Position numbers and translations under genes: made by a program. A stretch of 64,000 bases of DNA from Prevotella sp. (GTDB lineage: Bacteria > Bacteroidota > Bacteroidia > Bacteroidales > Bacteroidaceae): NCBI GenBank assembly GCA_016285055.1, contig JAEEPZ010000007.1:1-64000 (forward strand), in the 5' to 3' direction. The notes under the pieces are model-generated. The model saw only the letters and a program-made list of their open reading frames with translations. It ran no database searches and was not told the origin of the DNA. This document shows positions 37,165 to 43,404 of this stretch, piece after piece (the stretch's first letter is position 1; each line of letters begins with the position of its first letter).

Positions 37165-38121
37165 TCAACTATTCACTGCTTTCATGTTGACGGTCATGGC
37201 CTCTATCATGCGGGTGTAGATTTTGTTCAGCTCGGCTATCTGGTCGGCCATGCGGCGGCTCTGCTCGTTGATCTGGTCGATGGTGCCTATCTGCTGGCTG
37301 GCACCCTTGAGCTGCATCTCATAGACCTTGCAGATGCCGGTGAGCGTGCGGTTGAGGTTCTCCATCTCCTCGCTGTCGCGTGTGAGGCGCTCGCTCTGCT
37401 CGCTGACTTTCTTCAGCGTCTCTGTGAGGCTCTTCAGCTGCTCCACGTAGTTCTGCGTGGCCTCCTCCATCTCTGCAGGATCGATGTCGGGCAGTTCGGG
37501 CTGCTGCGGAGCTGCGATGCCGCCTATGATGCCGCCACTGATGATGCCGCCACTGACAGGAATGGCACTTCCGCCTTCGCCCACTGTGATGCCCTCGGCC
37601 GCAGCGTCGCCTTCGCCAGCCACAGCACCACCGCCGTAGCCGCCGCCGACATAGCCGCCGCCACCAATGAAGCCGCCACCGCTGATGACACCGCCGCCGC
37701 CGGCAATGCCGCTGCCAGCGCCTTCGCCTTCTACGCTGCTGCCTTCGCCGCCAGCACCTTCTGCCGAGCCGCCGCCACCAATGATGATGGTGCCGCCGCT
37801 GGCAACAGCGGGAGTTGCGGTGCCCTCTGTCGTGCCCTCCGGGTTCTCTACGTCTACGACATGTGTGGGCAGCTCCTTGCCCTCTTCGGTCTTGTCGAAG
37901 GGACGGTCGAAGCCTGCGATGAAGAACACCAGCACCTCAGTGCCCATGCCGAGGAAGAGCATGGTGTTAGCGCCTGGCAGGTGGGTGAGCTTAAACAAAG
38001 CACCGAGGATGACGATGGAGGCGCCCCAGCTGTAGGCGTAGTTCATGAACGTCTGCCCTGGCACGCTGTCGAGCCATTTCTGCAGGCGGTAGATGGGATT
38101 GAATTTGCTGTATTTGGTCAT
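37165..38121 (-). CDS. gldL: Gliding motility / T9SS protein GldL (PorL) with Gly-rich segment
   Basis: N-terminal MNYAYSWGASIVILGALFKLTHLPGANTMLFLGMGTEVLVFFIAGFD; C-terminal coiled coil. Confidence 0.92.
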   Translation of the reverse strand: MTKYSKFNPIYRLQKWLDSVPGQTFMNYAYSWGASIVILGALFKLTHLPGANTMLFLGMGTEVLVFFIAGFDRPFDKTEEGKELPTHVVDVENPEGTTEGTATPAVASGGTIIIGGGGSAEGAGGEGSSVEGEGAGSGIAGGGGVISGGGFIGGGGYVGGGYGGGAVAGEGDAAAEGITVGEGGSAIPVSGGIISGGIIGGIAAPQQPELPDIDPAEMEEATQNYVEQLKSLTETLKKVSEQSERLTRDSEEMENLNRTLTGICKVYEMQLKGASQQIGTIDQINEQSRRMADQIAELNKIYTRMIEAMTVNMKAVNS

Positions 38122-39918: not shown

Positions 39919-40935
39919 TCAGAGAATTCTCACGCTCTGGTGCCTGTTTCTCCCCTTCTTAAAGAGGTTGACGTCGGTCTGATAGCCCAGGAAGAGCTCG
40001 TGGGAGCCGTAGCCAAGCCCCACACCGTTGGTGAAGGCCTCATAGCTATAGCCCAGTGTGATGCCGTGGAAGACGCCTCCCAGGAACACCGACACTGAGT
40101 TCGTAGGGCTGTAGCCCACGCCTGCATACATCATCTTCTCCTCGTGCTTGTAGGTCAGTCGGGTGGTGATGTCGGCACGGTGGCTGATGCCATCGCTCTG
40201 TCCGAAGACAGAGGGCTGTATCGATAATAACGGATTTCTTAGCTGAATATTGCATCCTGCGTTCAAATAAAATGACATGGGCACCTTTATCTGACTTGTC
40301 TCACCCATTTCCACAGTAGGCGCCGTGAGATGCTGCACTGCAGCGCCTACATACCAGCTCTTGCGCTGATAGTAGAGTCCGGCGCCCAGGTCGAGCGAGT
40401 TGCCCTCCACTTCTGCCGTGGGCAGTGCCAGGTCGTTGGTCTGCTCCATCTCTATTTTCGAGCCGTCGAATTTCTCGCTGAGCATGCCGCCCTGTATGCC
40501 CACTGCCAGCATACCGCCGAAAAGCTTATGGCGATAGGCATACTGCAGGCCGATGTTGTTGTGGGAGAAGAGGCCGATGCCATCGCTCATGAAGCGCACG
40601 CCCACGCCGTGATAGGCGCCGAGGAAAAAGAACGGCATGTCGGCCACAGAAAACATGGTCTTGGGGTTGTGCTCAAAGCCTGCCAGCGCCATGGAATAAA
40701 TGGCATTGACGTTGATTTTGTCCTGCTTGCCCACGGCGGCAGGGTTATATGCCGTCTGCATCGCCCAGTAATGACTGAGCGACGGGTCGTACTGTGCACG
40801 GGCCTCGAAGCAGGCCACAAATAGAACGGCCAAAATCAGCAGACTTCGCCTTAACACGCTATAATAACGTTTTTCTTGCCGTTTTATTATGTCACAATAA
40901 AATAAAGATGTAGGTTTTTTTTTGTTTTGGCGCAT
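39919..40935 (-). CDS. porP: PorP/SprF family type IX secretion outer-membrane protein
   Basis: AQYDPSLSHYWAMQTAYNPAAVG...; repeated beta-strands; only the C-terminal part of track ORF 39919-41832. Confidence 0.9.
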   Translation of the reverse strand: MRQNKKKPTSLFYCDIIKRQEKRYYSVLRRSLLILAVLFVACFEARAQYDPSLSHYWAMQTAYNPAAVGKQDKINVNAIYSMALAGFEHNPKTMFSVADMPFFFLGAYHGVGVRFMSDGIGLFSHNNIGLQYAYRHKLFGGMLAVGIQGGMLSEKFDGSKIEMEQTNDLALPTAEVEGNSLDLGAGLYYQRKSWYVGAAVQHLTAPTVEMGETSQIKVPMSFYLNAGCNIQLRNPLLSIQPSVFGQSDGISHRADITTRLTYKHEEKMMYAGVGYSPTNSVSVFLGGVFHGITLGYSYEAFTNGVGLGYGSHELFLGYQTDVNLFKKGRNRHQSVRIL

Positions 40936-41897
40936 CAGAATGGCAGCCCCGGCTCGAGCAGGGGAAGTGGGAAGAGGGCGGCGTACAGCTCTTCGCAGCG
41001 GTGGAGGAGCGTGTTGAAGGCCGTTATCGACTGTCCCTGGCGCATGTCGCGGCGATACATCTCGACGTTCCACAGCTTCGAGGATCTGGCGGTGTAGCCC
41101 ACGGCATAGTCGCCCATGCGGTCGGCGCTGCAGCGTATGGAGGCGTCGGGAAACCAGACGTTCATCTGCTGGGCAAAGCGCGTCAGCATCGGGTCGTCTA
41201 TCAGCCCCAGGTCCATCAGCACGCGGTAGGCGGCATACCACTCGTAGGCGTGGCGCATCTGCTTCAGTACGACGCGCTCCACGGCCTGTCGCACAGCGTT
41301 GTAGTCGACGGCCCGCCGCTGATGATACTTCCTGAATATCAGTATGGTAGGCTGCTCTGGCGGCAGTGTGGCCGCACCTTCGCTCCGTGTCTGTCGGCTG
41401 GCGTTGAGCACCGCCTTGGCGCAGTCGGCGTAGGAGGCCCTCGGTATGCCCTTGCGCAGGCCTATGACCTTGCCGATGACTCGCCACGGGCGGTTGTCGA
41501 GCAGGATGGGCGCAAAACTGGTGTTCTGCGGCACGAGCCACTGGCGGCCATCGCCATCGGTGAAGAACGCCTTCACCGTGAAGCCGCCGTCCACCTCGGC
41601 CACCACAATGTCGCCGTCGTTGACGGCAGTGTCCATCTGCACCTCCAAGCGGTCGCCGGGCATGATGTCGGCATCGTGCATCGACAAACCGTCGACGTCG
41701 ATGAGGAACACGGGATGCTGGCCCACCAGCTTGCGGGGCATCAGCACATACTCGTTGCTCGTCACATCGCCAGCGTCTGAGGGGGTGCCGGCCAGCACTG
41801 GCACGTCGACCAGCGGCACCTCGGTGTCGCACAGCATTGGATTCAGGCCGGCGGCGCGCAGCAGCTCCAATTCTTTGATGACTTCTTCGTAGGTCAT
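40935..41897 (-). CDS. S24 LexA-like peptidase-domain protein without an obvious HTH
   Basis: VDGLSMHDADIMPGDRLEVQ (Ser) and IVVAEVDGGFTVKAFF (Lys); start MTYEEVIKEL. Confidence 0.7.
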   Translation of the reverse strand: MTYEEVIKELELLRAAGLNPMLCDTEVPLVDVPVLAGTPSDAGDVTSNEYVLMPRKLVGQHPVFLIDVDGLSMHDADIMPGDRLEVQMDTAVNDGDIVVAEVDGGFTVKAFFTDGDGRQWLVPQNTSFAPILLDNRPWRVIGKVIGLRKGIPRASYADCAKAVLNASRQTRSEGAATLPPEQPTILIFRKYHQRRAVDYNAVRQAVERVVLKQMRHAYEWYAAYRVLMDLGLIDDPMLTRFAQQMNVWFPDASIRCSADRMGDYAVGYTARSSKLWNVEMYRRDMRQGQSITAFNTLLHRCEELYAALFPLPLLEPGLPF

Positions 41898-41929: not shown

Positions 41930-41937
41930 CAAAGTTA
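41930..41937 (-). promoter_or_regulatory. -7-like box for the S24/porP/gld operon
   Basis: Minus-strand TAACTTTG. Confidence 0.5.
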
Positions 41938-42055
41938 CTACTTTTTTCCTTTCGTTCCGCATTTTTTGCCAACAAAATGATGGTTCTTCCGCTTTTTCAG
42001 CTGGATGGTGCGCACGAACACGTGCGCCACGCTATCGGGGGGCACCCTCAAAAAA

Positions 42056-42138
42056 GTCCGAAGGCTTCGGACACTCTGTCCGAAGGCTTCGGACTCGTTG
42101 TCCGAAGGCTTCGGACTCTTCGTCCGAAGCCTTCGGAC
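42056..42138. repeat. Array of four 17-bp palindromes, 22-bp period
   Basis: GTCCGAAGGCTTCGGAC at 42056, 42078, 42100; GTCCGAAGCCTTCGGAC at 42122. Confidence 0.95.
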
Positions 42139-42221
42139 GAAAATCTGCAGTGGTGGGACAAAAATGCGAAGCCTCGGCAAAAAAAAACAACAGTTTCTTT
42201 GTTTTGCGCCCGACTTTTTCG

Positions 42222-42229
42222 TAACTTTG
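42222..42229 (+). promoter_or_regulatory. -7-like box for argD
   Basis: TAACTTTG with upstream TTTG. Confidence 0.55.
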
Positions 42230-42261
42230 CACCCAATGAGCAGAAAAAGAAAGGAAACAAC

Positions 42262-43404
42262 ATGAAACTATTCGACGTTTACCCGCTCTTCGACGTGAAC
42301 ATCGTCAGGGGCAAAGGCTGCCGCGTCTGGGATGACAAGGGGCAGGAGTATCTTGATCTCTATGGCGGCCATGCTGTCATCAGCATCGGACATTCACATC
42401 CACACTACATAGAAAAAGTGACGGAGCAGCTCGGGAAGATAGCCTTCTACTCGAACTCGGTGGTGAACAAACTGCAGGTGGAGCTGGCCGAGAGACTCGG
42501 CAAAGCCAGCGGCTATGAGGACTATCAGCTGTTTCTCATCAACAGCGGTGCCGAGGCCAACGAGAACGCGCTGAAGCTGGCATCGTTTAAGACGGGCAAT
42601 GTGCGCGTGCTCTCCTGCGAGGGCGCTTTCCATGGTCGCACATCGCTGGCCGTAGAGGTGACACACAACCGCAAGATTGTGGCTCCCATCAACGACAACC
42701 ACCACGTGCGCTTCCTGCCGCTGAACGACCTCGAGCCGTGGGTGCGTGAGCTGAGCCGCGGTGGCATCGCCGCCGTCATCCTCGAATGTATTCAGGGTGT
42801 GGGCGGCATCCAGATGGCCACGCCGGAGTTTGCGCAGAAGCTGGCCTACGCCTGCAAGCGCTACCACGTGCCCCTCATCGCCGACGAGATACAGTGCGGC
42901 TACGGGCGCAGCGGCAAGTTCTTCGCTCATCAGCATCTGGGCATCAAGCCCGACATCATCACCATGGCGAAAGGCATTGCCAACGGGTTCCCCATGGGCG
43001 CCGTAATGATCAGTCCCGACTTCGAGCCTGTCTACGGACAGCTGGGCACCACCTTCGGCGGCAACCATTTGGCCTGCGCTGCCGCACTGGCCACACTCGA
43101 CGTGATGGAGGATGAAGGGCTGGTGGAGAACGCCCGCGTCATAGGCGACTACCTCATGGAGGGCATCCGCAACATAGGCAGCTCGCACATCAAGGAGGTG
43201 CGCGGCCGCGGTCTGATGATAGGCATCGAGCTCGACATGCCGCACAAGATGGTGCGCAAGCCGCTCATCCGCCACGAGCACTGCTTCACGGGCGCCGCAG
43301 GAGAGAACATCCTGCGCCTGCTGCCGCCGCTGTGCCTGACAAAGGCCGACGCCGACGACTTTATAGAAAGACTCATCAGAGTACAACCGGAGGACAGCGA
43401 TTAG
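42262..43404 (+). CDS. argD: Acetylornithine/succinylornithine aminotransferase
   Basis: GGHAVISIGHSHPHY ... NSGAEANENALKLA ... LIADEIQCGYGRSGKFFAHQHLGIKPDIITMAKGIANGFPMGAV. Confidence 0.93.
   Translation: MKLFDVYPLFDVNIVRGKGCRVWDDKGQEYLDLYGGHAVISIGHSHPHYIEKVTEQLGKIAFYSNSVVNKLQVELAERLGKASGYEDYQLFLINSGAEANENALKLASFKTGNVRVLSCEGAFHGRTSLAVEVTHNRKIVAPINDNHHVRFLPLNDLEPWVRELSRGGIAAVILECIQGVGGIQMATPEFAQKLAYACKRYHVPLIADEIQCGYGRSGKFFAHQHLGIKPDIITMAKGIANGFPMGAVMISPDFEPVYGQLGTTFGGNHLACAAALATLDVMEDEGLVENARVIGDYLMEGIRNIGSSHIKEVRGRGLMIGIELDMPHKMVRKPLIRHEHCFTGAAGENILRLLPPLCLTKADADDFIERLIRVQPEDSD

Follow-up and report, generated by a model that had tools for sequence, protein, structure and literature searches.

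Small intergenic repeats able to form hairpins have been described in several bacterial groups. REP/BIME elements of the GTAG and CGTC superfamilies are small, abundant intergenic stem-loops, often clustered, that form head-to-head dimers (PMC3733652). CGTC REPs combine a CGTC tag, AT at the first two stem positions, a CCA tail, a stem of 8-9 bp and a loop of 4-5 nt, and have no dedicated transposase (PMC3733652). In Streptococcus pneumoniae, the interspersed SPRITE repeats have the look of an intrinsic terminator, with an 18-bp duplex followed by a U-rich tract, and the dispersed, modular BOX repeats carry outer modules around variable tandem inner modules and have a predicted RNA fold (PMC3049150). 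Within the Bacteroidales, the BrickBuilt MITE/minisatellite of Porphyromonas gingivalis is species-restricted, always intergenic and hairpin-forming, and consists of a leader, tandem repeats of about 22-23 nt and a tail; its 23-nt repeats follow each other without spacers, in 1 to 22.8 copies at 19 loci, and tolerate indels (PMC4596501).

The array described here lies in a 64,000-nt stretch of a Prevotella sp. draft genome, hereafter called the window, and resembles each of these families in part. Like REP/BIME elements, its family consists of small, abundant and clustered intergenic stem-loops, but these form rigid 22-bp arrays without a GTAG or CGTC tag or an AT stem start. By layout it recalls SPRITE, with a predicted duplex of 16 bp before the U-rich tract; this duplex arises from tandem 17-bp palindromes with a 22-bp period, in another phylum. 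The dispersed, modular organization and predicted RNA fold are common to BOX, whereas the inner module is here a near-perfect palindrome of 22 bp in 3-4 copies at fixed spacing, and the outer modules are often absent. With BrickBuilt it shares the restriction to a species, the intergenic location, the hairpins and the order of leader, tandem repeats and tail; it differs by 5-nt spacers of fixed length and variable sequence, a 22-nt period, 3-4 units, no indels, about 100 loci and a leader in only part of the copies. On these features the repeat would be placed among the modular interspersed repeats, lacking both the REP tags and the spacer-free organization of BrickBuilt, with ends of the MITE type unproven. 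Neither this sequence nor comparable Prevotella arrays were found described in the open-access literature searched.

Results

The array occupies positions 42056-42138 of the window, between two neighbouring genes that lie outside the element: an argD-like class-III aminotransferase gene (42262..43404, plus strand, PF00202) and an S24 peptidase-like gene (40935..41897, minus strand, PF00717). As the original prediction had described, it comprises four 17-bp palindromes with an exact 22-bp period, separated on the plus strand by ACTCT, TCGTT and TCTTC, and the TAACTTTG promoter boxes that it had named are present at 42222-42229 for argD (plus strand) and at 41930-41937 for the S24 gene (minus strand). 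The unit consensus is GTCCGAAG[G/C]CTTCGGAC. Scanning the window for this 17-mer with up to three mismatches gave four matches against 0.09 expected, a number reached by none of 100 shuffles. Read on the plus strand, the units at 42056-42072, 42078-42094 and 42100-42116 are GTCCGAAGGCTTCGGAC and the unit at 42122-42138 has C at its centre.

Comparison with other copies assigns the array to the minus strand. In this orientation, unit 1 (42122..42138) reads GTCCGAAGGCTTCGGAC and is followed by units 2 (42100..42116), 3 (42078..42094) and 4 (42056..42072), separated by the spacers GAAGA (42117..42121), AACGA (42095..42099) and AGAGT (42073..42077). Unit 1 is preceded by TTTTC (42139..42143), which can pair with spacer 1 with one U-G pair; this pairing covaries across copies (see below). 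Directly after unit 4 comes a T6 tract (42050..42055, AAAAAA on the plus strand), giving the last hairpin an intrinsic-terminator layout directed towards the S24 gene, and then a G-rich tail, GAGGGTGCC (42041..42049), which resembles the tails of other copies (TTTTTTG.GG..GCC).

Other parts of the locus also have counterparts elsewhere. The sequence GGTGCGCACGAACACGTGCGCCAC at 42006-42031 is similar to a dispersed hairpin, GGTGTGCACGAATACGTGCACCAC, found beside other arrays. The argD promoter region (42173-42242) has about 20 matches of 80-87% in G420, the closest relative by argD, four of them at 84-bp steps in C46:3012-3322; judged by these matches, it is a dispersed promoter-like repeat. 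A GldL-like glycine-rich frame (37165-38121) and neighbouring gld/porP-type genes are collinear with contig C8 of G420 up to the S24 gene.

The 17-mer was searched in the genome and in related genomes, as the original prediction had suggested. The draft genome (4.61 Mb, 257 contigs, 94% complete, 5% contamination) contains 339 exact units in about 90-100 intergenic arrays, mostly of 3-4 units. A survey of 1.72 Mb, read both around and away from arrays, gave 90 places, 86 of them with at least two units: 58 arrays have four units, 23 have three, three have two, one has five and one has six, the last through a tandem duplication. The spacing between adjacent units was 22 bp in all 231 cases, and an unbiased scan for neighbouring palindromes in the identical 1.72 Mb gave one sharp peak, at 22. 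Because 26 of the 84 arrays listed lie less than 700 nt from a contig end, the repeat probably breaks the assembly and its copy number is a lower bound. The neighbours of five arrays are unrelated (class-III aminotransferase, S24 peptidase, S1/CvfB protein, GH3, CLC channel, QueF, isopropylmalate-synthase type, radical SAM and GNAT), and a sixth array lies next to a GDSL lipase gene. Other interspersed hairpin modules occur in intergenic regions with arrays (L016-L136), among them GTCCCGAAGGGAC, CAGGGGC..GCCCCTG, GTGCACGAATACGTGCAC and TGTGCGG[AT]TGGAATAAGACATAGTTACGTCGC; some have many copies in G059, G263, G291 and G420 as well.

The oriented copies have a common layout: an optional leader, three repetitions of the 17-mer plus a spacer of the form RR[A/C][G/C][A/T/C], a final 17-mer, TTTTTT and a G-rich stretch. 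The arms are almost invariant, against 44 different spacers among 227. Spacers nevertheless follow rules, with purines at positions 1 and 2 in 226 of 227 and never a G at position 5. In family orientation the centre base of the unit is mostly C (48-53 of 58 per position in four-unit arrays). Of 14 multi-unit arrays counted manually on contigs picked irrespective of the T-tract, 11 have TTTTT at one and the same end; the corresponding figure for the whole set, 78 of 86, is inflated because later contigs were selected by a pattern that included an A5 edge. The leader (..TTTTAAAA.TGTCCGTAATTTTTCTTTACATTTCGGACTTTTC) extends up to about 140 nt. A loosely defined pattern finds it in 34 copies; most copies, including the window array, are without it. 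Leader copies start near CTGTGCGGTTGAA and a few tails contain CAACCGCACAG, possibly as terminal inverted repeats, and most copies have neither.

The same arms allow two hairpin registers, the 17-mer folded on itself or CTTCGGAC-N5-GTCCGAAG, an 8-bp stem closed by the five nucleotides of the spacer. For the T-tail strand, the best predicted fold consists of two 16-bp hairpins, one formed by units 1-2 and the other, which U6 follows, by units 3-4, at -59.8 kcal/mol, against -36.7 kcal/mol when all 17-mers are forced and -37.4 kcal/mol when all 21-mers are forced. This predicted fold has the layout of an intrinsic terminator, a stable G+C-rich hairpin followed by a T-tract, as in SPRITE. Among four-unit arrays, the five nucleotides that precede unit 1 form a perfect complement of spacer 1 in 12 cases against 3.9 expected (0 of 2,000 shuffles), and counting each distinct combination once leaves 6 against 2.0 expected (p = 0.007). 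No comparable covariation was seen between other spacer pairs of four-unit arrays, and in three-unit arrays the flank/spacer-1 complementarity was not seen (one case). Since the complementarity exceeds chance and involves several different pairs (TCGTC/GACGA, TCTTC/GAAGA, TGTTC/GAACA, TGTTT/AAACA and TTTTC/GAAAA), the hairpin pairing of four-unit arrays seems to be maintained; the evidence is moderate, not strong, because the copies are related by descent. A search of Rfam 15 returned no family at its gathering score, the best match reaching 23 bits against a threshold of 94.

The position of arrays relative to genes was evaluated with our own ORF calls for the 59 arrays with both neighbours called, using random placement in the same intergenic regions as the reference. 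Arrays avoid start codons, with 4 within 150 nt against 16.3 expected (P < 0.0002), and are enriched near stop codons, with 22 within 100 nt against 13.5 expected (P = 0.001). Three arrays called inside genes probably reflect, on inspection, start-codon overcalls or a contig edge. Between tandem genes the T-tract points with the genes in 18 cases and against them in 11, which is not significant, and divergent regions, including that of the window, are not avoided. The arrays are therefore not simply gene terminators, and the direction of the T-tail was dropped as evidence for such a role.

The distribution of the family was then assessed in 99 relatives, 59 of them of the same genus. Exact units number 0-1 in each, and only two relatives carry one. 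Prevotella sp. Tb.RUG.318 is the sole named genome in the collection with a three-unit array, on a contig that has several repeat families in common with the window genome, many at about 89-96% identity; by this evidence the organism is most likely a Prevotella, probably from the rumen. Pairs of GTCCG-N7-CGGAC at about the same spacing and with other cores occur in at least 6 of the 99 relatives, all of the same genus. In G055 (L139), the units GTACGGAAGCTCCGTAC, GTCCGGACGTTGCGGAC, GTCCGAAGCCTCCGGAC and GTCCCAAGTATTCGGAC keep the 22-bp spacing with changed stems, as read by eye. About 198 kb of argD and other unselected loci of the relatives showed no peak at 22 bp, so the spacing does not characterize their DNA in general. 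In G291, near an IS200-type transposase frame, another palindromic repeat, ATATACCATCGGTATAT, likewise has a 22-bp spacing (L206:1759-1830).

Among the related genomes listed, no array was found upstream of argD, despite recognisable promoter boxes; in at least three of them an argC-like coding sequence (assigned by eye) lies directly upstream of argD. In G420, the argD side and the S24 side are on different contigs. At another array locus, L122:18997, gene order is kept and the stretch that contains the array, together with other repeats, measures 905 bp in this genome; its counterpart in G420 has 106 bp. By this comparison, the difference is a gain here or a loss in G420. The roughly 800 bp of difference at this single collinear locus are mixed repeats and define neither element ends nor a target-site duplication. 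Synteny was broken at 4 of 6 arrays and at 9 of 27 other junctions, which is not a significant difference (Fisher p = 0.15).

Carriage by known mobile or defense elements was also considered. No viral contig carries the triple unit. The looser GTCCG-N7-CGGAC pair matched six viral contigs, and in the one checked (L203) the match was set aside because the repeat sits within a coding frame. Plasmids gave weak partial matches only. A CRISPR array was ruled out, repeats of 17 and spacers of 5 nucleotides being far too short. No mobilising enzyme for the repeat was found in the draft genome, about 94% complete.

Discussion

As one reading of the window array, the original prediction had suggested a phased operator that could link arginine metabolism to secretion and gliding. 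In its most general form, a dimeric protein, such as a global regulator or nucleoid protein, would bind each 17-mer on one helix face, two turns apart, at about 100 sites. Near-invariant arms, dyads of operator size, and a spacing that is always 22 bp with spacers constant in length and variable in sequence would all suit such a protein. A symmetric site would not, however, be expected to have a conserved orientation and a T-tract, and arrays avoid the 150 nt ahead of start codons; their outer five nucleotides covary by complementarity, the sequence itself not being conserved. A genome-wide operator array is thus rather unlikely. The specific link is not supported either: the 339 units lie beside unrelated genes, no array was seen upstream of argD in the related genomes listed, and the closest relative has argD on another contig than the S24 gene. 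The evidence favours the alternative that the prediction had itself offered, a multi-hairpin or BIME-like element. It had also held that hundreds of random copies with no spacing rule would indicate a REP-like repeat; the copies are indeed intergenic and in the hundreds, but their 22-bp spacing is absolute.

A REP element of the RAYT (TnpA-REP) system, whose single-stranded DNA hairpins would be copied by a REP-associated tyrosine transposase, would account for small, abundant intergenic hairpins, and PF01797 matches were found in all five array-bearing genomes tested (G055, G050, G007, G037 and G000, the last by a 110-aa frame only). We consider it very unlikely. The draft has no full-length PF01797 match, and no family palindrome lies at its 110-aa frame; GTCCG palindromes are absent from the PF01797 loci among the matches listed, and G291 and G059 have strong PF01797 matches and none of these arrays. 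An association of the arrays with RAYT was accordingly not supported by the profile matches and their loci. Nor do the units carry the GTAG tag, as they start with GTCC and the base before them, which ends the spacer, is A, T or C. The 21-nt register fits CGTC REPs in stem and loop size; its stem starts with CT, and C precedes GTCC in only 36 of 227 spacers. The constrained loops (purines at positions 1-2, no G at 5), the self-contained terminator layout of the predicted fold and the leader conserved in 34 copies could instead belong to a multi-copy structured small RNA with a leader-borne promoter, a string of purine-rich-loop hairpins and its own terminator, for example one bound by an RNA-binding protein. 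Most arrays, including that of the window, lack the leader, no promoter motif was identified and no Rfam family reaches its gathering score, making this explanation decidedly unlikely.

We propose that the array probably belongs to a species-level family of interspersed repeats that are short, intergenic, non-autonomous, modular and terminator-like. In appearance it is closer to a terminator-like DNA element that spreads than to a regulator of arginine or gliding genes. Direct observation covers the family's copy number, intergenic location, fixed spacing, orientation and position bias, and its presence or absence between species. The core of the element, on the minus strand in the window, consists of three or four palindromic 17-mers with a fixed 22-bp period and a T6 end, with a leader on some copies, and would act as a nucleic-acid structure. 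As RNA it would form two long hairpins with U6 behind them and so act on transcription from one side: transcripts entering from the leader side would fold and then stop at U6, with a stable 3' end. Copies would survive where promoters are undisturbed, mostly close to the ends of genes. That the arms diverge little and the spacers much could also result from concerted correction of the palindromes rather than from function. It is also conceivable, if unlikely, that 22-bp-phased hairpin arrays are a structural class of Prevotella, in which period and pairing are kept while stems change between species, serving as a genome-wide scaffold for a dedicated DNA- or RNA-binding partner and not as passive repeats.

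What had been taken for a possible regulatory connection of arginine synthesis with secretion thus becomes a repeat family found throughout the genome. Its copies are numerous enough to shape intergenic DNA and, with 26 of 84 arrays near contig ends, may fragment the assemblies of this organism. With its fixed spacing, its loop grammar and its compensatory pairing, the family offers a clean natural test of why small palindromic repeats persist: for RNA structure, for termination, or solely through the way in which they are copied.
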